This document shows, in pieces, positions 32,130 to 50,490 of a stretch of DNA of 64,000 bases. The translations under genes were made by a program, and so were the position numbers. The stretch's first letter is position 1; each line of letters opens with the position of its first letter. The notes under the pieces were generated by a model. It ran no database searches and was not told where the DNA came from. It saw only the letters and a program-made list of their open reading frames with translations. Origin of the DNA: Hyphomonas neptunium ATCC 15444 (GTDB lineage: Bacteria > Pseudomonadota > Alphaproteobacteria > Caulobacterales > Hyphomonadaceae); NCBI RefSeq assembly GCF_000013025.1, contig NC_008358.1:1426001-1490000 (forward strand), in the 5' to 3' direction.

Positions 32130-32206
32130 GCGGGTGTAGCTCAGTCGGTTAGAGTGCCGGCCTGTCACGCCGGAGGTCGCGGGTTCGAGCCCCGTCACTC
32201 GCGCCA
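32130..32206 (+). tRNA. tRNA-Asp (GTC)
   Basis: A 77-base cloverleaf including encoded CCA. The acceptor arm GCGGGTG pairs with CACTCGC, the D-arm is TAGCTCAGTCGGTTAGAG, the anticodon loop is CTGTCAC with GTC, and the T-arm is GCGGG-TTCGAGC-CCCGT. It is the last core-type feature before a run of mobile and accessory genes, so its 3' end is the probable integration site of the neighbouring element. Confidence 0.98.
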
Positions 32207-32244
32207 TTTCTTACGAAATGAACTCCAATAAAATCAAGGTCTTA

Positions 32245-32279
32245 GGGCGATTTTCCGGGTTCGATTTCCCCTGTCGCCC
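32245..32279 (+). repeat. tRNA-3'-end-like hairpin
   Basis: GGGCGA at 32245-32250 pairs with TCGCCC at 32274-32279 and encloses CCGGGTTCGATTTCCCC, which resembles a T-arm with GGTTCGA. It lies 38 bases past tRNA-Asp. It may be a leftover of a tRNA end or an attachment-site structure. Confidence 0.4.
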
Positions 32280-32284
32280 AAAAC

Positions 32285-32319
32285 TGGGATACAAATTGGG
32301 TACAAAGTGGGATACAAAG
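32285..32319 (+). repeat. Three short direct repeats next to the presumed attachment site
   Basis: TGGGATACAAA, TGGGTACAAA and TGGGATACAAA stand in tandem at 32285, 32297 and 32308, separated by single bases, close to one helical turn apart. Repeats of this form next to a tRNA-borne attachment site are likely arm-type binding sites for the integrase. A diverged copy (TAGGATACGAAG) sits at 33937 just before the integrase gene. Confidence 0.5.
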
Positions 32320-32499
32320 AGGGCTGGCTGACGGCCCGTACGGAGGCATTTTTCCCGGCCCGACAACTTCCTGATCGGTCAGGATGCAATCGCCCGACAC
32401 GGAAAGCGATTCTGACTGACTTCGCGTGAAGCAGGGTAAACGTTGATACTATCGAGGATGTATTTCGAACCCGTTTTGCCCGCCTCCATCGTCGGCGCT

Positions 32500-32642
32500 C
32501 GTGACTGCTTTTCAAGCCACCGGATCGCCGGACGGATGAGCGTGATCCAATAGTCTTTTCGACAGGCGCAGGATCGATCCTTTCATTGCGTCATGCGACG
32601 GCGAGAATATCCGGAAAATCCCGAAGCGTGTGTGCAGCAGCC
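32500..32642 (-). pseudogene. Remnant of AbiEii/AbiGii-type nucleotidyltransferase toxin
   Basis: Directly after the stop of the AbiEi gene the minus strand encodes HTLRDFPDILAVA, then an in-frame TGA (32593-32591), then RNERIDPAPVEK. After a one-base frame change in an A run near 32556-32559 it reads KDYWITLIRPAIRWLEKQ. Together this is the N-terminal VEKDYWIT signature of AbiEii toxins, broken by one nonsense codon and one frameshift, with nothing of the catalytic GGT(S) domain left. The gene is dead. Confidence 0.7.
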
Positions 32643-33236
32643 TTACGCCGCCGCCGCAAGGGGCGCTTCCAGAACAGGCTCCAGCAGTCGCTGCGCCCGC
32701 GCAGAGCCAAACTCCCTGACCGCCTTTGCCAGCCGTTTTCGGTTCATCCCGCGCGCCCGCGTCAGCGCTTTGGGGAGAACAGACGATTGATCTTCCGGCA
32801 GACGATCGAGATTGTGAAGCAGATCGACCAGCAGGACTTCCGCGCTCAGCTTTGCGGGCACGCAGGCACGCATCCGGAAATCATACCAGCGCCCGTCCAG
32901 TTCGAACCGGCCATGCCGTTTGTGGTTGTAGACGACCGGCTCATTGCAGAGCTGCGTCGTGCCCAGTCCGAGACTGTTATAGGCGTTGGGTGACACGATC
33001 AGAAAACGGTCGTCTCCCAGAAAAGCTTCCACCAGCTTTTGCGGATCGGCTGGCGCCAGGCCAAAACGGGTTTTGCGCGGCGCCATGTAAAGCCCGGCCC
33101 CGACCTTCTCAAGCCGACCCTCCGCCAGAAGGCGCTGGAGGTGGCGGTCGACAGCCGTCGACCAGCGCGCAAGCTCCCGGCGCCGATATACCTCGCCTGG
33201 CCGCAGGTGTTTCGTCAGATCTGTCAGTGCCGTCAT
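32643..33236 (-). CDS. AbiEi/DUF6088-type antitoxin
   Basis: A 197-residue protein (MTALTDLTKHLRPGEVYRRRELARW...). An N-terminal winged helix-turn-helix (about 15-60, RRELARWSTAVDRHLQRLLAEGRLEKVGAGLYM) is followed by the AbiEi C-terminal domain with LIVSPNAYNSLGLGTTQL. In type IV toxin-antitoxin systems this protein represses its own operon and counters the AbiEii nucleotidyltransferase. Here the reading frame is intact while the toxin next to it is degraded. The ATG at 33236 has GGAG upstream. Confidence 0.82.
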   Translation of the reverse strand: MTALTDLTKHLRPGEVYRRRELARWSTAVDRHLQRLLAEGRLEKVGAGLYMAPRKTRFGLAPADPQKLVEAFLGDDRFLIVSPNAYNSLGLGTTQLCNEPVVYNHKRHGRFELDGRWYDFRMRACVPAKLSAEVLLVDLLHNLDRLPEDQSSVLPKALTRARGMNRKRLAKAVREFGSARAQRLLEPVLEAPLAAAA

Positions 33237-33495
33237 CACTCCGCGCCTTCACCTCTTATATTCGGTCCAGGAAGGTAATAATGTAAGTTTTCTTATTAAA
33301 AATACATGCACTTCGGAGGGCGTTACGGCCACTGCGCGCCCCGCTTGTCACGTGCCAGCTGTCAACAGCACAGGACCGCCCTGAGGGTGGGAGCATCAAG
33401 CGGGGAGAGAAACGGATATGTGCGCCTGGGCATTCTGACTGGTGTCTCCTGTGCTGTCCCGAACTCGTTTGCCGACCTTGATGTCCGGGTCTTTG

Positions 33496-33515
33496 ATCTT
33501 CCCGGTCGGGAAGAT
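33496..33515. promoter_or_regulatory. Operator-like palindrome 1 of the HipB-like gene
   Basis: ATCTTCCCGGTCGGGAAGAT, a 20-base palindrome with a single central mismatch. Its centre is exactly 50 bases from the centre of the second copy, so a dimeric helix-turn-helix protein could bind both on nearly the same helix face. Confidence 0.7.
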
Positions 33516-33545
33516 TTAGGAGTGTTTCAACCCTTCTGGTCTGCT

Positions 33546-33565
33546 ATCTTCCCGATCGGGAAGAT
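33546..33565. promoter_or_regulatory. Operator-like palindrome 2, overlapping the ribosome site
   Basis: ATCTTCCCGATCGGGAAGAT, a perfect 20-base palindrome ending six bases before the ATG of the HipB-like gene and containing its GGGAAG ribosome site. Position and pairing with palindrome 1 argue for autorepression. Confidence 0.75.
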
Positions 33566-33570
33566 TTCAT

Positions 33571-33801
33571 ATGATCAACAACGCCTCAGAATTCGGCCAG
33601 ATGGTTGCCCGCGCCCGCAAGGCACTGGGAATTACCCAGCGCGAGCTCGCCCTGGCGATCAATGCCGGAGAGCGCTTCATCGTGGACCTGGAAGCTGGCA
33701 AGCCAACCGCCCAGCTGGGAAAGGCGCTCGCCGCCGCGAGGGCCGCCGGCGTCCGCCTGGAAGACGTTTCCGGCAACCGCTTTGACACGGCACGCAGATG
33801 A
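33571..33801 (+). CDS. HipB-like XRE-family regulator, without HipA
   Basis: A 76-residue helix-turn-helix protein (MINNASEFGQMVARARKALGITQRELALAINAGERFIVDLEAGKPTA...), the y4mF/HipB form. HipB normally partners a HipA kinase toxin encoded just downstream. Here the next gene is an integrase and the 152 bases between hold no HipA sequence. Twin palindromes upstream suggest it still controls itself. It could also act on other promoters of the element, such as the integrase gene. Confidence 0.85.
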   Translation: MINNASEFGQMVARARKALGITQRELALAINAGERFIVDLEAGKPTAQLGKALAAARAAGVRLEDVSGNRFDTARR

Positions 33802-33953
33802 GGCTGCCGGTCTGTGCCAATGGAATGAGCGTTAGCGCGTTCCTGCCCGGCGAGGCAGAGATTACTTTCCGGCGTGCCGGCCGAGGGCACCGATAAGGTG
33901 CCGGTCAGCAATTAGGGGTAGAAATAAGGAGTGCAGTAGGATACGAAGGGTGG

Positions 33954-35351
33954 ATGGCTGAACGTCGCGACCCGGATCGGTTCCTCCTGAGGCGCGGTCG
34001 CCGCTGGTACTATCAGCGGCGCGTTCCGAACGCGTTTTCCCATTTCGATAACCGGGCCTTCGTGAAGGTCTCTCTGAAGACCGGATCGCATGAAGTCGCG
34101 CGCCTGCGCCGGGACCATCTGGCCGAAGCCGATGACCAGTACTGGAGGGCACTCGCCGCTGAGGCGGGCAGCTCCGCCGGCAGAGGGCCGGCCCTTCGAG
34201 CCGCCCTCGAGCACCGCTACAAGGCGGCCGTCGCCCGCGCCATGGCTTATGGGTTTTGCTATAGCCCGGCCGAACCGCTCGCGGAGAGCCGGGCCATCGC
34301 TGAACTCATGGAGCGTATCGCTCTGCTTGAGGCGCAGGCGGGCAGGGGCGGGCACCCGAGCCGGGCGGACGCCGAGGCGCTCCTTGGCGGCTCGCCGGAT
34401 CCGTCTTCCCGCATCATTGTGTCAGAAGCGCTCGAGCTCTACGTCAAACGCATTGCGTTTGATGACCAGTACAACAAGTCGCCGGCCCAGCGCCGGTCCT
34501 GGGAAAAGACCAAGCGAACGTCGATCACCTACTTCATTCAGCAGATGGGCGACGTGCCTTTCAGCGACATCACCCGGGAAATAGCGCTGGAATACCGGGA
34601 CTGGTGGATGGAGAAGATGCAGCCGCAGTCAGACGGCTCGGCGCCGGTCGCCCCCAACACAGCCAACCGGCATATCGGTAACATCCGCTCGCTCTATGAG
34701 CGCTACTTCAGGCATATCGGCGTGAGCGATGTGGAAAATCCGTTCCGGGACATTTACTTCAGCGGCAAGACAGAGATGAAGCGCGCCTCGTTCAGCAATG
34801 ACTGGGTGAGACACCGCATTCTCGTACCGGGCCTGTTCGAGGGTCTGCGGCTGGAGCTTCGGGTCATCATCTACCTCCTCATCGAAACCGGCGCGCGCCT
34901 CAGCGAGCTTGTGAACCTGCGTCCGGAAGATATCCGGCTGAGTGCCAGGGTCCCACACATCGCGATCCGGCCCGAGAAGAACCGGGAGCTCAAGACAGAC
35001 GATTCCCGGCGCGATATTCCGCTGGTCGGCGTCGCGGGGATCGCGATGCGTGCCTGCCCGGAGGGGTTTCCATATTACTATGACCGCAGCACGCTGGTGT
35101 CGGCCAATCTTATAAAGGCGTTCCGGCAGAGGAAGCTCCTGCCAACATCGGACCACGTCATATATTCCTTCCGGCATTCCTTCGAAGACAGGATGCTCGA
35201 GGGCGGGCTCGACTATGGCCTGCGCTGCGCACTGATGGGGCACAAGAATAACCGGCCGGAATACGGGATGGGCGGGTCGCTGGAATATCGGCAGGCGGAG
35301 CTTTTGAAGATCGCGCATCCGTTTGAGGCGGGGGTGTTTGGCGGCGGCTAG
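33954..35351 (+). CDS. Tyrosine recombinase (integrase)
   Basis: A 465-residue phage/island integrase. The N-terminal part (RRGRRWYYQRRVPNAF) is the DUF6538-type arm-binding start, followed by a SAM-like core-binding region (about 155-260). The catalytic domain has Arg in IETGARLSELV, YSFRHSFEDR in place of the usual HxLR box (Tyr for His), MGHKN for the second His and Tyr in PEYG. It reads away from tRNA-Asp and probably integrated the element there. Convergent with the lipoprotein gene 141 bases on. Confidence 0.92.
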   Translation: MAERRDPDRFLLRRGRRWYYQRRVPNAFSHFDNRAFVKVSLKTGSHEVARLRRDHLAEADDQYWRALAAEAGSSAGRGPALRAALEHRYKAAVARAMAYGFCYSPAEPLAESRAIAELMERIALLEAQAGRGGHPSRADAEALLGGSPDPSSRIIVSEALELYVKRIAFDDQYNKSPAQRRSWEKTKRTSITYFIQQMGDVPFSDITREIALEYRDWWMEKMQPQSDGSAPVAPNTANRHIGNIRSLYERYFRHIGVSDVENPFRDIYFSGKTEMKRASFSNDWVRHRILVPGLFEGLRLELRVIIYLLIETGARLSELVNLRPEDIRLSARVPHIAIRPEKNRELKTDDSRRDIPLVGVAGIAMRACPEGFPYYYDRSTLVSANLIKAFRQRKLLPTSDHVIYSFRHSFEDRMLEGGLDYGLRCALMGHKNNRPEYGMGGSLEYRQAELLKIAHPFEAGVFGGG

Positions 35352-35492: not shown

Positions 35493-36122
35493 TCAAAGCC
35501 CGTAGCTGCTGATGAGTTTGCCGGCAAAGGCGCTGGCGCGTTCATCCTTGACGGTTTTGGCGACCTCATCGTCGCGCATCGTCTTCTGCGCGCTGAGGAC
35601 AATCGCCGCGGTTTCATCGTCTGAGTTCGGAAAGATGACGAGGTTTCCACGGCTGGACCGGTAAATGGCGGTCACCGTGCCTGCGCCCTCGCCGACACGG
35701 TTGAAGCCGTCCATGTCAGCGGCCAGTCGGGTCTGGGACTGGCGCTCCGCGGCGAGGTTGGCCGCGCTGTCCCAGGTCTGGATGCCGGCGCTGAAAAGCT
35801 GCCCGCCATCGCTGTCTTTCCAGAGGCACCGGGTTTGCGTGGGTGTTGTTTCCAGCACGCCCGTACCGGTAATGCCCAGGTCGGCAAGGTCTTCCGCGGG
35901 CAGCCAGTTGCAGGGGTTTTCATTCACAATCGCAGCCCATTTGTTCCAGTCGAAGCCTGTCGTTGCCGCCGTCACCGGCGCGGCGGGCTCCCCGGGTTCG
36001 GCGGCAGCGGGGGCGGCCTCCGGCGTGAGGGGCGCCTCCACGGGCGCGGCCGGTTCACTGCCGCCGCAGGCTGTGGCGGCCGCCAGAAGGGCGAGGAGGG
36101 GAAGGATTTTCAGCGCTTTCAT
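35493..36122 (-). CDS. Small lipoprotein of a three-gene envelope cassette
   Basis: A 209-residue protein with a lipoprotein signal (LLALLAAATAC, Cys near residue 19), a Pro/Ala-rich linker (about 22-55) and a globular domain starting FDWNKWAAIVNENPCNWLPAEDLADLGI. The CNWLP...C pairing (NPCNWL and TRCLW) suggests one disulfide. It resembles DUF3558-type lipoproteins loosely; no firm family is claimed. It starts four bases after the stop of the OmpA-domain lipoprotein gene, so the two are one operon. Confidence 0.75.
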   Translation of the reverse strand: MKALKILPLLALLAAATACGGSEPAAPVEAPLTPEAAPAAAEPGEPAAPVTAATTGFDWNKWAAIVNENPCNWLPAEDLADLGITGTGVLETTPTQTRCLWKDSDGGQLFSAGIQTWDSAANLAAERQSQTRLAADMDGFNRVGEGAGTVTAIYRSSRGNLVIFPNSDDETAAIVLSAQKTMRDDEVAKTVKDERASAFAGKLISSYGL

Positions 36123-36126
36123 GGGA

Positions 36127-37761
36127 TCACTCCGTCAGATAACCCTTCTTGCCGGGCAGGATGAGAATATCGACGCGGCGGTTTTCCGCGCGGCCTTCTT
36201 CGGTCGCATTGTCCGCCACCGGACGGCTTGCGCCATAGCCCCTGATCGTCACGTCCTCCGGCACAGGCGAAATCTTGCCCGAGAGATTGTCCCAGACGGA
36301 GCGTGCGCGGTTTTCAGACAGTGTCTGGTTGGACGCCGCCGAGCCGGTGGAGTCCGTATGACCCTCGACCGTTACGCGGATGTCAGCGCCATAAGTCTGC
36401 AGCTGCGCGGCAAGCTCTGCCAGGGCGCTTTCCGCCTCAGGCTTGATCTCATACTTGCCGACATCGAACAGCAGGGCGCTGTCGAGCGACAGGCGGATTT
36501 CTGCGCCCACGGCCGCGATGGCATCAATATCGGCGCCTGAATGATTGCCCCCGCAGGCAACGCTGGCATTGGTCAGCCGGACAAAGGGAAACTTGTCGCC
36601 CTTGCTCACGAAGGGCCCGATATCGACCTCCGACCGGGCGCCTTCGATCTCGCCCACCTCAATCCAGCTTTCCCCGTCAGAGGAAATGGCGAGCAGGGTT
36701 TTCTCCACCACGGGCCCGATCTCGAAAATGTAGAGATCCACCCCGTCGACATCGACCAGGATATTGTCCGTGAACTGCGTAATCAGTTCGCCATTGCAGC
36801 CGAGCGAGATGAAGTCGGCGCTGTAGGTGTTGCGATAGTTCGGCTCGCCAAGGGCGTTCTCCGGAAAGTCGAAGGGTGGCTTGGAGGGCTTCTCGCCGGG
36901 CGTGAAGCTCACCACCCTGTCGGCAAAGGAAAGCGCGCCGAGCGGCAGGCAGATCTCGCGCTTGCCACTGCCATAGATGAGGCCCGGGCAGTCGTCGCCC
37001 GCGCGGCCCTTGCCGGGCGCGTCGCGGTCGATCTTCGGCGGCGGCGCGTCCCGGGTCTTGGGCAGGAGCAGGCCTATGTCCTCGGCCGTGATGCCGTCCT
37101 CGCCGCTTCCCCTGATCAACGCTTTGAGCTCGGCATTGGTCGCTGTGAAGCGGCCGTCCGTCTGTTCCTGCAGCAGGGCGGTCAGCTCTTCCTTCGTCAT
37201 TGTGAACGAGCCACCCATGCTTTCGACAAGATGGTGCAGGGTCGGGCCGGTCAGCTCCAGGACCGGGCCATTGCGCGCAAGGTCGAGGGCCTTCTGGGCG
37301 CCGGGCGTGGCCGCCACCAGCCCGTCCTGCGCTGCGCGCAGGGTGTCCACTCCAGAGCCTGTTTCTTGGTCCGCAGCGGCTTCCCCGGCGAGGTCCAACC
37401 GGTCGGCCAGCGGGCTGAGATCGAGGGTGGGATAAGCTTCCTGCAGCTGGGCGAAGGTGCCCGCAGCGGCGCCCACCTGTCCATCATCGGTGAAGGAGTA
37501 GAGCGCCACGCGCCCGTCGCCGCGCGGCTCGACCCAATAGACCGAGCCATCCAGATCGGTCACCGGGATTGCCGTTTCCGGCAGGCCTTCGGGGCGGACG
37601 AAACCCGGATCGGCGGCAGGCGTCACTTGCGCCTCGTTTTCCGCATCGGCAGCCGGCGCCGCCTCAGGCGCTTCGGGAGTGGCGGGCGCCGTTTCGCTGC
37701 CGCCACAGGCAGCCAGCAGGATAAGGCTGGCGGCGGCCAGCAGCGTCTGCACATGAGACAT
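36127..37761 (-). CDS. OmpA-domain lipoprotein with a discoidin-like module
   Basis: A 544-residue protein. The lipobox is LLAACGG (Cys near 19), then an Ala/Pro/Glu-rich linker and a long unknown region (about 50-255). A beta module at about 275-430 has PENALGEPN, FISLGCNGELITQF, DVDGVDLYIFEIGP and SSDGESW, the pattern of cell-surface ALGxPN domains. The C-terminal OmpA peptidoglycan-binding domain (about 440-535) has VEGHTDSTGSAASNQTLSENRA. The start at 37761 overlaps the stop of the upstream gene. It likely ties an outer-membrane complex to the cell wall. Confidence 0.85.
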   Translation of the reverse strand: MSHVQTLLAAASLILLAACGGSETAPATPEAPEAAPAADAENEAQVTPAADPGFVRPEGLPETAIPVTDLDGSVYWVEPRGDGRVALYSFTDDGQVGAAAGTFAQLQEAYPTLDLSPLADRLDLAGEAAADQETGSGVDTLRAAQDGLVAATPGAQKALDLARNGPVLELTGPTLHHLVESMGGSFTMTKEELTALLQEQTDGRFTATNAELKALIRGSGEDGITAEDIGLLLPKTRDAPPPKIDRDAPGKGRAGDDCPGLIYGSGKREICLPLGALSFADRVVSFTPGEKPSKPPFDFPENALGEPNYRNTYSADFISLGCNGELITQFTDNILVDVDGVDLYIFEIGPVVEKTLLAISSDGESWIEVGEIEGARSEVDIGPFVSKGDKFPFVRLTNASVACGGNHSGADIDAIAAVGAEIRLSLDSALLFDVGKYEIKPEAESALAELAAQLQTYGADIRVTVEGHTDSTGSAASNQTLSENRARSVWDNLSGKISPVPEDVTIRGYGASRPVADNATEEGRAENRRVDILILPGKKGYLTE

Positions 37762-39449
37762 CAGTTCGTCCTCTGATAACTGGCCCTGATCGTCCTGTAG
37801 AACATCTCGCCCTCGGTGGAGCGCCACATGGGATTGTTGTTGTGTTCGGCCTCGCAGCGGCCGAGTTCGTCGAGAACTTCGGTCATCTGCGCATTGAACT
37901 CTGACCGTTTGGCATCGTAGGCGTCCTTGGTGCCCTGGAAGCTTTTCTGGATGTCGGCCTTCTGCTGCGCCCACGACATTTCAACGAACTGATGGGGCTT
38001 TGGCACGGTGTCGCCCATGGTGATGGCGGTGCTGACGAAATCGGCCGTGCTCATATAGATGATCCGCAGGCGCTCATAATTCAGCAGGAGATCATCAAGC
38101 TCCCGGAAGGGTTCCCGGTAACAGGCCTCGCAGGCGTCGTAATCGTCCCAGGCCGAGCTCATCTCCTCGTCATCCTCCCCGTCCACGGCGGGCGGCCGGC
38201 AGGTGAGCGGCATCGGGGGCAGGTTGGATGGGTCCGGCTCCATCTCGCGGTCGGACTCCAGCAGCATGCGCAGGCGTTCGATCTCCGCGCGGTTGGCAGA
38301 GGCCTGGCGGTTCAGGTCCTCAATGCGCCGGTCCGCTTCGGCGAGGCGATCACCATAGTCTTCATCCACCGGCGCCGGGCCAGCGTCTTCAGAGCCCATA
38401 TCCTCAGAACCTGCGTCTTCGGACGACGCATCGTCCTTCGGCGCGTTGCTCGGGTCGAAATCCTCCGGCTTGAGGTCAATCGGCCGCCCCGAGCTGCTCG
38501 TCGGCTCGCCCGCAAAGGGGTTGGGCGGGGAGTCCTCCGGCTTGTCCTCAGGTTTGCCAGCGCTGGCATCCTTGTCCTTATCGCGTGGCACGTCGGGGAG
38601 GGGCTTGTCGACGTCAAACGGGTTGGGCGCCTGGTCAGGCTTTCCGGCGCTGGCGTCTTTGTCCTTGTCGCGGGGCACCTCGGGCAGGGGCTTGTCGACA
38701 GCAAACGGATTGGGGGCGTCGCCGCCTGGCGGGGCCTCCTCGCCCTGCGCATAGGCGGGGGCCGGATCATGGATCGACGCCATCATCAGGCCGCCGATCA
38801 GCACTGCGGCGACCGCCCCACCCTTGCCCCGGCGCAGCATCATCACGCCCAGGAACACCACGATCACCGCCAGTAAGCCCGCGATGACGTAGAGGACGGG
38901 AGATGCGCCTCGGCCCTGACCGCCTGCCTTATCGCGCGCCTGGCTTGTGGCACTGATGCCAGCGTCTGCCATCTCAGGCGTAATGTAGACGCGTGCCATG
39001 CTTGGCGCAGCGGGCGCGCCCTGCCAGAACACCAGGGTGGCGCGGGCTGGCGCGCCGCCCGGTGAGGTGAGCTGAACCCCCACATCCCCATGCGCGCGGC
39101 CCTCGAACACGAAGCTGCCCGCTCGGCCGGTCGATCCGGAGTGGACAACCTTGCCCCAGTTCTGGCGGTGCAGCGTCACTTCCAGCGGGCGCTCCAGGCT
39201 GGCGGCAATCACCTGCACCGAGAAAGGCGCCGACACATTGGTACCGCGCGCATAGTATCGGACGGGTGTATCGCCTACCGTCGCCTCCACTGACGCAAAC
39301 TGCCCGTCTTTGTCCGGGCGATTGCCGTAATCGAGCTTGACAGCTTCCACTTCGTCACCTGGCGGCGTGGCCGGCTCTGCGAACGCTGCAACAGCCACAA
39401 AGATGCCAGCCATGAGGCCCGTCAACAAACGCTTATGTGGCATCAGCAA
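37761..39449 (-). CDS. Membrane-anchored repeat/coiled-coil protein, first gene of the envelope cassette
   Basis: A 562-residue protein of unknown family. It has a signal peptide (1-24), a beta-rich periplasmic domain (about 30-165) with DTPVRYYARGTNVSAPFSV, a transmembrane helix (183-205) and a second hydrophobic stretch (211-226). Next come Pro/Asp/Lys-rich repeats with three PNPF units (246, 275, 309), an acidic Ser/Glu/Asp stretch, a coiled coil (365-400) and a helical Cys-containing C-terminus (415-562). The end of the gene overlaps the OmpA-lipoprotein start by one base. The start may be Met1 or Met3. Confidence 0.75.
   Translation of the reverse strand: MLMPHKRLLTGLMAGIFVAVAAFAEPATPPGDEVEAVKLDYGNRPDKDGQFASVEATVGDTPVRYYARGTNVSAPFSVQVIAASLERPLEVTLHRQNWGKVVHSGSTGRAGSFVFEGRAHGDVGVQLTSPGGAPARATLVFWQGAPAAPSMARVYITPEMADAGISATSQARDKAGGQGRGASPVLYVIAGLLAVIVVFLGVMMLRRGKGGAVAAVLIGGLMMASIHDPAPAYAQGEEAPPGGDAPNPFAVDKPLPEVPRDKDKDASAGKPDQAPNPFDVDKPLPDVPRDKDKDASAGKPEDKPEDSPPNPFAGEPTSSSGRPIDLKPEDFDPSNAPKDDASSEDAGSEDMGSEDAGPAPVDEDYGDRLAEADRRIEDLNRQASANRAEIERLRMLLESDREMEPDPSNLPPMPLTCRPPAVDGEDDEEMSSAWDDYDACEACYREPFRELDDLLLNYERLRIIYMSTADFVSTAITMGDTVPKPHQFVEMSWAQQKADIQKSFQGTKDAYDAKRSEFNAQMTEVLDELGRCEAEHNNNPMWRSTEGEMFYRTIRASYQRTN
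38550..38717 (-). repeat. Coding tandem repeat, 87-bp period
   Basis: Residues 245-300 of the membrane-anchored protein are two near-identical 29-residue units (PNPFxVDKPLPxVPRDKDKD followed by ASAGKP). A third partial PNPF unit follows 34 residues later. The DNA copies are very similar, so the count may vary between strains. Confidence 0.8.
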
Positions 39450-40029
39450 TCCCCTGGATGTCTGCCGTTAAGCCAAGTTTGCCCGACAAAGTGTCGCAGG
39501 CCAGCTTCGGGATCAACTAAAAATCGCTACCTGCGTATCTGGTCTGTAAATTTTCCGGTCAGCGTCCCGCTGCCTTCCGGCTGGCGGTTGAGGGCCGGTC
39601 CCGTCGATCCGCCCCAGGTTTTCTGATGTCTCCGGCTGCGCCCATCCGAGCCGGTCAGGTCGAAGTTTCCCGGCGGCGGAAACTCGCCAAAAGGCGACGC
39701 TCAGCATCGGGGATAAGCCAGCAACTCAGGGCTGATTTTAGCCCACCTGAGAACCGCAGATCTGGGTGGACGTCTCCGCTCACTTCGTGGCTTGAAGCCC
39801 TATGCCTTGAGTTTTCTCACGAAGAATCTGGCCAGCGCTTGCCACCCCTGTTCCGCAGCGGCCAGGAGGAGGGTGCGCAACATGAGCTTAGTCCTGGCAG
39901 GCGCGGGGGATTCGCAAACAGCGGGGATGCCGCTTTGTGTGGAATCTGTCCTGCAGAGCTTGAAACAGGCGTTTGCCTTTCGGCGCCGCAAGCGTGTTAA
40001 TGGGAGGGCGCAGCAAGGACACTCCGCCT
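39450..40029. other. 580-base gap after the envelope cassette
   Basis: No convincing gene. On the minus strand about 39535-39690 gives an open stretch reading NFDLTGSDGRSRR...KTWGGSTGPALNRQ without a start codon, possibly a gene remnant. The promoter of the three-gene cassette should lie near 39450-39550. Confidence 0.4.
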
Positions 40030-47685: not shown

Positions 47686-47788
47686 ATGGCAAACGCACTC
47701 GGATACGTCACGGAAACCAAAGGCGGCTTTGAAGGCACGCTGGCAATGATGAACCTCTCAGCGCCCATCCGCATCGAGAAGAATGCGG
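47686..47788 (+). pseudogene. 5' fragment of a DUF736 gene
   Basis: After a good ribosome site (AAAGGAGACC) the frame starts MANALGYVTETKGGFEGTLA and continues MMNLSAPIRIEKN, the clear N-terminus of the longer DUF736 subtype. It then runs out of family sequence at about 47,786 and into relaxase DNA in another frame. About 70% of the gene is missing. Confidence 0.75.
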
Positions 47789-48667
47789 AGACCCGAGGAC
47801 GAATTGCGGGACAAACGGTTCCTGCTGGTGCGCGACTTTTCTGGCGCGGTCTGGCACGTGCCCGCGCTCGGGCTTGAGCCAGGTGAACTGCCCCCGACCG
47901 GCGCCGTGGTGGACGTGTCGGCCAGGGCCGCGGCACCCAGACAGGCAGACAGGACAATCGCGGAGATCGCCGGGCGAAGCGGGGGCGTCTACTCAGATGA
48001 TCTCCACGCAGCCCGGGATCCCGGTGCCTCGGCCGCTTTCCGGCTGGCTCATAAGCGGCGCCTCGAAGCCCTCCGGATGAGAGGCGTTGTGACGCGCCGC
48101 CCCGATGGCACCTGGGATGTCCCGGCCGACTATCTGGAGCGGGCCGCTACCCTGGAGGCCGTGCGGGGCGGGGGTGTCAGTATCAAAGTGCGCAGCTGGA
48201 TGGCGCTTGAGGCGCAGGTTATGGCGCGCGCCGAGACCTGGCTGGACGGACCAGATGCGGCAGGCGTCAGCAACGCTGCGGCCGAGCTTATGGAGCTCCG
48301 CGCTGCGCGGACCGCTTTCCTCCGGGAGAAGGGTTTTCTTCAGCCGGGGCAGACGCGGCTTTCGGAGGCGGACCGCCAGCGTCTGCGCGCCGGCGAGCTT
48401 GCCCGGGTGGCCGCCATCGAGGCGGCCGGCTCGGATCGCCAGAGCGTGAGCGCGGCGACCGGGGCGTCTTTTGAGGGCCGCTTCGAGCGCGTTGTGGACC
48501 TCGCCCAGGGCCGCATGGCGCTGATCGGTACAGAGAAGATGTTCGCGCTGGTGCCCTGGCGCCGGGAGATGGAGCGCTATCGCGGAGAGGCCCTCGTCAT
48601 TGAGGCGAAGGGGTCGGGCATTGGATGGACACTCAGCGCCGGGCGCACCCGGGATTTGGGCCGTTAG
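47789..48667 (+). pseudogene. 3' part of a DUF3363 relaxase (VirD2-like)
   Basis: The frame reads PEDELRDKRFLLVRDFSGAV, then AHKRRLEALRMRGVVTRR and ends EAKGSGIGWTLSAGRTRDLG. This is the C-terminal DUF3363 part of the relaxases encoded beside VirD4/TraG in these elements. The N-terminal nicking domain with its Tyr and His residues is gone. An ATG at 47783 gives a formal 294-codon frame but no nicking activity would be expected. Confidence 0.78.
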
Positions 48668-48680
48668 CGGGCATTCCCGG

Positions 48681-48720
48681 TTATGCCGCGATATGCCGCC
48701 ATTTGCCGCCATTTGCCGCC
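48681..48720 (+). repeat. Four 10-bp direct repeats before the coupling-protein gene
   Basis: TTATGCCGCG, ATATGCCGCC, ATTTGCCGCC and ATTTGCCGCC are consecutive, with a further partial ATTCACG. The 10-base period puts every copy on the same helix face, as in iteron-type protein sites. Confidence 0.6.
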
Positions 48721-48787
48721 ATTCACGATGGCCAGCCGGGCATCCTGAGGGGAAACTGGCCTGAAGCAGAAACCGGAATCTTGTCCC

Positions 48788-50180
48788 ATGTCTCCTTCAA
48801 AAATTCTGATTGGCCAGTTCTTCATTGTCCTGACGATCATCCTTGCCGCAACCTGGTCTGCGACCCAGTGGGCTGCCCATTCGCTCGGCTATCAGTCCGC
48901 GCTCGGCCCGCCCTGGTTCGTCGTCAATGACATACCGGTCTATATTCCCTGGCGGCTTTATCAGTGGTGGTACGCCTACGAGGCTTATGCGCCCGGCGTG
49001 TTCGCCCGGGCCGGCGCGATCGCGGCCAGTGGCGGGCTCCTGGGTATCCTGGCTGCGGTCATCGGGTCACTCTGGCGCGCGCGCTGGGAGCGGCATGTGA
49101 CGACCTACGGCTCAGCACGCTGGGCGAACCGGCGGGACATCAGGAAGGCAGGGCTCCTTCGCAATGACGGCGTCCTCCTCGGGCTATGGCAGGGGCGCTA
49201 CCTGCGCCATGGCGGCCCGGAACATGTGCTCGCCGTTGCGCCCACCCGGTCGGGCAAGGGGGTCGGCCTTGTCATCCCGACGCTTCTGTCCTGGACCGGG
49301 AGCTGCGTGGTTCATGATATCAAGGGTGAGAACTGGCAGCTGACATCTGGCTGGCGGTCAACGCTCGGTCCTTGCATCCGCTTTGATCCGACCGACCGGG
49401 AGAGCCTGCGCTACAATCCGCTTCTCGAAATCCGCAAAGGGGAGTTTGAGGTTCGCGACGTCCAGAACATTGCCGACATCCTCGTGGATCCTGAAGGCAG
49501 CGCCGAGCGGCGCGATCACTGGGACAAGACAGGCTACGCCCTCCTCGTCGCGGTCATCCTGCATGTGCTCTATGCCGAGGAGGACAAGTCCCTGGCCGGC
49601 TGCGCCCGCTTCCTCGCCCATCCCGAGCGCACCCTGTTCCAGACTCTCGACCGGATGCGCACGGCCCATCATCTTGTCGGACCAGACGGGCGGGGCCGGG
49701 TCCACCCCAAGGTCGCCGAAGGCGCCCGCGCGATGCTCAACAAGTCTGAGAACGAACGCTCCGGCGTCCTCTCGACAACACTGACCTTGCTGGAAGTCTA
49801 TACCGATCCGGTGATCGCCCGGCTGACGTCTGCCAGCGACTGGGGCGTGATGGATCTGGTGGCGGCTGCTCGGCCCGTTTCACTCTATCTGGTTGTTCCG
49901 CCCTCGGACATCTCCCGGACGCGGCCTCTGATGCGTCTGATACTCAACCAGATCGGGCGCCGGCTGACCGAAGAACTGCCCGGCTCCTCCCGGAGAGAGC
50001 TGCTCCTGATGCTGGATGAGTTTCCGGCGCTCGGTCGGCTTGATTTTTTTGAGACGGCGCTCGCCTTCCTGGCCGGCTACCGTATCCGGGCATTCCTGAT
50101 CACTCAGTCCCTGAACCAGATCGAGAAAGCTTACGGGCCGAACAATTCAATCCTCGACAATTGTCATGTCCGGGTTCGGG
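48788..50180 (+). pseudogene. traG: VirD4/TraG conjugative coupling protein, C-terminally truncated
   Basis: About 460 residues of a normally ~650-residue coupling ATPase. Two N-terminal helices (about 8-30 and 70-95) are followed by Walker A APTRSGKGVG (about 153), VVHDIKGENW, and Walker B LLMLDEFPALG (about 412). The C-terminal motif begins LITQSLNQIEKAYG...ILDNCHVRV and then stops being TraG; the frame ends seven codons later at 50200. The end of the motor domain is missing, so it should not pump DNA. Confidence 0.88.
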
Positions 50181-50490
50181 CGGCGAGCGCCAGAGGGTAG
50201 CGATCGCGCGGGCCCTGATGCGGCGCCCGCGGCTGGTGCTGGCTGATGAACCCACGTCGGCCCTCGATCCGGAGACCGAATCCCGCATTCTTGGGGAATT
50301 GAAGATCGCCTTCGGGGAGGCCACGCTGATCCTTGCGTCACACAGGCTGAGGAGTGTCCGGCACATGGATATGATCGTCGTGATGTCGAAGGGGCGCGTG
50401 GTCGAGACCGGAACCCATGACGCGCTGATGGCGGCCGGCAGCGCTTATGCGCAGATGTGGCAGATACAGGAAGGCGGTCAGGAAGCATGA
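50170..50490 (+). pseudogene. 3' fragment of an ABC transporter ATPase
   Basis: The frame begins in mid-domain at the signature SGGERQRVAIARALMRRP, followed by Walker B LVLADEPTSALDPE, the switch His in ILASHRLRSV, and an ordinary C-terminus. Walker A and any membrane part are absent. It is fused to the broken TraG at about 50,172. The last codons overlap the thermonuclease start (ATGA). Confidence 0.82.

Follow-up and report, generated by a model that had tools for sequence, protein, structure and literature searches.

A conserved three-gene envelope operon of Hyphomonas neptunium whose first gene is a predicted fusion of two exported proteins

Several described systems resemble parts of a three-gene envelope locus that we analyzed in Hyphomonas neptunium. 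Pal of the Tol-Pal system, YfiB of YfiBNR and other OmpA lipoproteins have a C-terminal OmpA domain and are encoded beside an inner-membrane partner, and in OmpA-type domains (e.g. 3td5) a conserved Asp and Arg bind diaminopimelate. The product of the second gene of our locus (B) has the same C-terminal domain and a neighboring inner-membrane partner; however, it contains extra conserved N-terminal and middle domains, and the products of the first and third genes (A and C) match no Tol, YfiN or YfiR family. The first half of A (A1) has a predicted beta-sandwich like those of PPC and collagen-binding domains and of the periplasmic lysozyme inhibitor PliG (Z ~11), but its sequence identity to them is 8-11%, it is predicted to be membrane-anchored by a following helix and it has no protease attached. 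C shares a lipobox and two conserved Cys residues with DUF3558 lipoproteins, in a different operon context. The cytochrome b-c1 precursor FbcH of Bradyrhizobium japonicum is a single product that is cut at an internal signal peptide, so that one gene supplies a membrane protein as well as another exported protein; the same single-gene processing is predicted for A, and the two sequences are unrelated. A literature search found no paper on the A-B-C cassette and met DUF3558 in a single paper on an unrelated subject.

The window, the whole stretch of 64,000 nucleotides that was analyzed, comprises bases 1426001-1490000 of the single 3,705,021-base chromosome. Genes A (37761-39443, 560 aa), B (36127-37761, 544 aa) and C (35493-36122, 209 aa) form a tight operon on the minus strand. 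The first base of the B start codon, 37761, is also the end of the A stop codon (a 1-base overlap, TGATG), and four bases separate the stop of B at 36127 from the start of C at 36122; the coordinates, strand and packing given in the original prediction were thus correct. For A, the ATG at 39443 is a likelier start than the TTG at 39449 chosen there, and lies two codons further in. Alignment with relatives identified a hexamer, TTGATC (39511-39516, minus strand), that opens the 5' region common to the relatives ~70 bases ahead of the A start codon and is probably the -35 box of a promoter belonging to the operon; a sigma-70 consensus scan of the region upstream of A detected no promoter. A pair resembling TTAR-N6/7-TTAGCC (CtrA-like, judged by eye) is found upstream in the relatives and is absent from the window copy. 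Whole-gene dN/dS between the window genome and its relatives was 0.11-0.21 for A, 0.12-0.13 for B and 0.18-0.25 for C, and these comparisons indicate conservation beyond chance, under purifying selection, for all three genes.

Gene A had no match in the family libraries (Pfam, NCBIfam), in PADLOC or among solved structures searched by sequence, in line with the proposal that this is an undescribed envelope operon. In an AlphaFold2 model of A (pLDDT 58 for the whole protein, low) a beta-sandwich (residues 30-143; pLDDT 67-87) precedes a membrane helix (182-204) and a further short hydrophobic helix. An extended disordered stretch and two long helical segments (361-400 and 426-534) come next, and most of the helical domain has a pLDDT of 78-93. 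All parts of A lie on the minus strand. A first signal peptide (residues 1-22, 39378-39443; AFA-EP, the hyphen marking the predicted cut here and in other signal peptides) was identified by a hydrophobic scan and alignment, and is followed by the periplasmic sandwich (39015-39356) and by the transmembrane anchor (38832-38900), which ends in RRGKGG. An internal signal peptide at residues 205-232 (38748-38831; predicted cut PAPAYA-QGEE), recognized from fused and split homologues, begins the second half, A2. Beyond it lie a disordered acidic linker with PNPF and DKP motifs (residues 233-360, 38364-38747), in which the PNPF repeats form two 87-nt tandem copies at 38548-38717, a coiled-coil-like helix (residues 361-400, 38244-38363) and a domain at residues 411-560 (37764-38213), with predicted helices at 426-479 and 485-534 and, in the alignments, a conserved CxxC and a third Cys (the Cys-helical domain). 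The earlier description of A as a membrane-anchored periplasmic protein with PNPF repeats and a coiled coil therefore stands for the repeats and helices; it treated A as a single protein and missed the internal signal peptide.

Gene B encodes a lipoprotein with a small N-terminal domain, a middle domain of unnamed type and an OmpA peptidoglycan-binding domain (36178-36471, minus strand; Pfam 9.1e-21, 74.5 bits against a cut-off of 27.2, positions 1-98 of 98). In the OmpA domain an Asp and an Arg, 15 residues apart, are invariant. The lipobox is LAAC-GGSE, without Asp at +2. The assignment of B as an OmpA-domain lipoprotein was confirmed, and the discoidin-like module also claimed for it found no support in Pfam, NCBIfam or the low-confidence model. 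Its middle region, a conserved domain, gave no Pfam match up to an E value of 1 and was modeled mostly at low confidence (pLDDT 20-60). Fold searches with the B model, including Foldseek, gave OmpA domains alone among the matches listed (3td5 among them), and searches of solved structures by sequence matched only the OmpA domain of B and returned chance-level matches for C. C is, as expected, a small lipoprotein with a lipobox; its two conserved Cys residues lie in NPCxWL and CxW motifs, and it is a borderline match to DUF3558, just under the Pfam gathering cut-off (4.3e-8, 33.7 bits against 34.1; 26.3 bits for the homologue in a Steroidobacteraceae genome).

Comparison of the A1 sandwich with solved structures by VIA-align gave Z scores of ~11 for PPC and ColG collagen-binding domains (5iku, 5sv5), for PliG (4dzg) and for GOLD domains; the match to the PPC domain 5sv5 had a Z of 11.0 over 98 residues with an rmsd of 2.3, and no sequence profile match to PPC was found in Pfam. 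The model thus places the sandwich in a common binding fold that by itself names no function. One reading of these data is a glycan- or hydrolase-handling module, in which A1 and the B middle domain would bind sugars or block wall hydrolases and so shield the wall from lysozymes or the enzymes of competitors. The Z of 11.1 to PliG over 99 residues, the scores of ~11 to collagen-binding domains and the peptidoglycan-binding domain of B are consistent with it. However, the identity of A1 to PliG is only 9%, and eukaryotic GOLD domains are among the many unrelated binding modules that have the same PPC/jelly-roll fold; we consider such a role unlikely.

A search through the family of the Steroidobacteraceae genome returned A-like matches in two pieces, and alignments indicate that two exported proteins are fused in gene A: A1, made up of a signal peptide, the PPC-like domain and the membrane anchor, and A2, made up of a second signal peptide ending in AxA-Q, the linker, the coiled coil and the Cys-helical domain. 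Four gammaproteobacterial genomes (G666, G662, G573 and G716, the last from a class-wide search) encode A1 and A2 separately. In 4/4 of these pairs the genes overlap by exactly four bases (RTGA), the A1 gene stops right after the membrane helix (RRKSS, RRKTS, KRRTS or RRKRA), and A2 has its start codon and own signal peptide at the corresponding point. AxA-Q was kept after the membrane helix in all seven fused homologues tested, with PAPAYA-QGEE in the window protein and PGPARA-QAPD in the gammaproteobacterial fused A. The simplest reading of the gene structures is that A arose through fusion of a four-base-overlapping gene pair. G737 carries an additional, diverged fused form outside this set of seven (L125, 4371-7394); the product of its divergent neighbor, named by eye, resembles von Willebrand A proteins and has repeated beta domains.

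Given the split A1 and A2 genes and the internal signal peptide of the fused form, signal peptidase I probably still cuts A. Alternatively, A could stay uncut and cross the membrane twice, with the internal hydrophobic segment as a second transmembrane helix. The two halves are joined in every Hyphomonas copy, and a fusion can hold two domains at a fixed ratio. Against this, AxA-Q is present in all fused forms tested, including the 39% identical gammaproteobacterial A, and the split forms begin their second protein at that point with a normal signal peptide, which makes an uncut A rather improbable. Gene A also offers a clear natural example of overlapping secretory genes that fused with the internal signal peptide kept, so that stoichiometry may be set by proteolysis.

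The 105 genomes of the family were scanned for the operon. A was found in 6/105, all of one genus (Hyphomonas), with B and C alongside in 6/6. In one of the six (G045) A and C are intact and B is cut to 104 aa (L029, 11254-11568), so that its OmpA part has been lost naturally. A set of 84,980 species genomes, scanned with short conserved peptides and so blind to distant forms, added just one relative of A, in a Steroidobacteraceae genome (a gammaproteobacterium, JALORN010000050.1), where the gene order is B-C-A and the identities are 39% (A), 57% (B) and 34% (C). All three genes are thus carried together in the six family genomes and in this one, and the possibility that their homologues never co-occur does not hold. 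The Steroidobacteraceae operon sits after gyrB and no integrase was seen nearby; the gene upstream encodes a 1385-aa GyrB with an apparent intein (L105, 407-4564). Lipoboxes are present in the Hyphomonas B and C proteins and in neither protein of the Steroidobacteraceae copy, so that outer-membrane lipidation is not essential. Elsewhere, OmpA-domain genes adjoin A1 or A2 in the orders OmpA-A1-A2 (G573, overlapping genes) and OmpA-A2 (G850), with N-terminal parts that differ from that of B. No OmpA gene was found within the several kb read on each side of the A1-A2 loci of G666, G716 and G737 (the G662 locus is interrupted by the end of its contig), and A1-A2 may therefore act without B. From these neighborhoods we conclude that A1-A2 is the core, the OmpA lipoprotein a frequent partner and C the least widespread component. 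B-like proteins without A were found in G087 and G098. Shorter proteins with the B middle and OmpA domains, with no A or C nearby, occur in two other genera of the family (L035, 5653-6636; L036, 456-1406).

We interpret A-B-C as a four-component envelope module, most likely a tether or scaffold across the inner membrane, wall and outer membrane, a reading to which we give slightly less than an even chance. Translation of gene A would give a single chain with two entries into the Sec pathway. From this chain signal peptidase I would remove the first signal peptide, and it would also cut at PAPAYA-QGEE, releasing A1 and A2 in equal amounts. The PPC-like domain of A1 would face the periplasm, held at the inner membrane by its C-terminal helix, and A2 would be soluble in the periplasm, combining an acidic Pro-rich linker with a coiled coil and a helical domain stabilized by disulfides. 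B would be an outer-membrane lipoprotein whose OmpA domain grips peptidoglycan, and C would be a second outer-membrane lipoprotein, so that the four proteins together could bridge the inner membrane, wall and outer membrane. The cut in A, the localization of the products, a physical complex and the tethering role are all things we infer; the operon, the joint occurrence of its genes, the fused and split genes, the domain content and the purifying selection are read from the sequences themselves. The span from inner to outer membrane in the original prediction agrees with this tether model, and universal outer-membrane anchoring does not, given the Steroidobacteraceae B and C proteins. A larger proposal, put forward with caution as possible, is an undescribed trans-envelope machine in which anchored PPC and periplasmic helical subunits would come 1:1 from one cut precursor; the fused gene would have originated in a four-base-overlapping pair and been carried, together with an OmpA lipoprotein, into both Alpha- and Gammaproteobacteria. 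In either form the module is defined and testable, Pfam, NCBIfam and PADLOC name no family for its component A, and H. neptunium is a budding bacterium for which published fluorescent fusions and deletions exist.

Analysis of the genomic setting revealed two locations. In five relatives (G056, G058, G063, G045 and G051) the operon occupies a conserved core locus with no integrase, flanked by a MATE transporter gene towards purF and, at its other end, by the side of the class II DAHP synthase (in G051 the locus extends over two contigs). In the window genome the same site, at 0.72 Mb, is empty, with ~70 bases in place of the 3.97-kb operon stretch of G056, and the site is likewise empty in G044. 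Here the operon is instead cargo beside a tyrosine integrase (33954-35351, plus strand, Pfam), a neighbor outside the operon, at a tRNA-Asp (GTC) gene that is an integration hot spot (32130-32206, plus strand). The homology between the core-locus and tRNA-Asp copies runs from the TTGATC box to the C stop codon, and these limits indicate that the operon and its own upstream region were moved or captured as cargo once. An integrase-borne mobile cassette was rejected: the integrase adjoins the genes in the window genome only, the other copies lying at the core locus or after gyrB, and the earlier claim that the genes travel beside an integrase fails as a general rule. No sign of A in other mobile elements was found either: A was not matched in phage collections, IMG/VR contigs or plasmid collections; in the plasmid collections C and split A2 were likewise unmatched and B matched only OmpA-type proteins at low identity.

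At tRNA-Asp, G058 has the same integrase with its AbiEi neighbor and G051 has the integrase, and A-B-C is absent there in both; the cargo position in G058 holds a mercury-resistance (mer) operon, with MerA/P/T/R named by eye. The tRNA-Asp gene of the genus thus appears as a site with one integrase and exchangeable cargo (window 32130-35351; L135, 2892-8909; L138, 3449-4850). In the window the element includes an AbiEi-like antitoxin gene (32643-33239, minus strand; PADLOC AbiEi, 4.4e-81) with no obvious adjoining AbiEii toxin, and a search of the window for a second attachment site found the 3' end of the tRNA only once.

Synonymous divergence from the relatives was 0.9-1.4 for A and 0.7-1.1 for C, compared with 0.3-0.8 for flanking core genes, and that between B and its G056 counterpart was 0.40, within the core range. 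The copy is therefore mosaic rather than recently duplicated. Two alleles of the A2 Cys-helical domain (37764-38213) were distinguished: that of the window is close to those of G063, G058 and G051 (dN 0.04-0.05) and far from that of G056 (0.32), and B of the window genome is closest to G056, contrary to this pattern. Two divergent alleles with neighboring parts patterned otherwise suggest recombination or partner matching.

These divergent alleles of the A C-terminal domain, the patchy presence in the genus and the lipoproteins with possible binding domains would also fit a surface adhesin or display system on a mobile element. However, A1 and A2 are predicted to be periplasmic, no surface-export signal was seen, and 5/6 loci are chromosomal without an integrase; we regard this explanation as improbable. 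A Zorya-style envelope phage defense module, to which the PADLOC ZorB matches to B (1e-15) and the AbiEi gene and integrase adjoining the operon in the window genome might point, is very improbable, as those matches are confined to the generic OmpA domain of B, the operon has no ZorA/MotA-like gene, A and C match nothing in PADLOC and the neighbors in the relatives are metabolic genes. Known defense systems in PADLOC were rejected on the same ground, with generic OmpA matches only and the ZorA/MotA-like partner lacking. Elsewhere in the window, genes for a DUF3363 protein and a TraG-type coupling protein (47783-50200) form a conjugative remnant that lies apart from the operon, as originally predicted.
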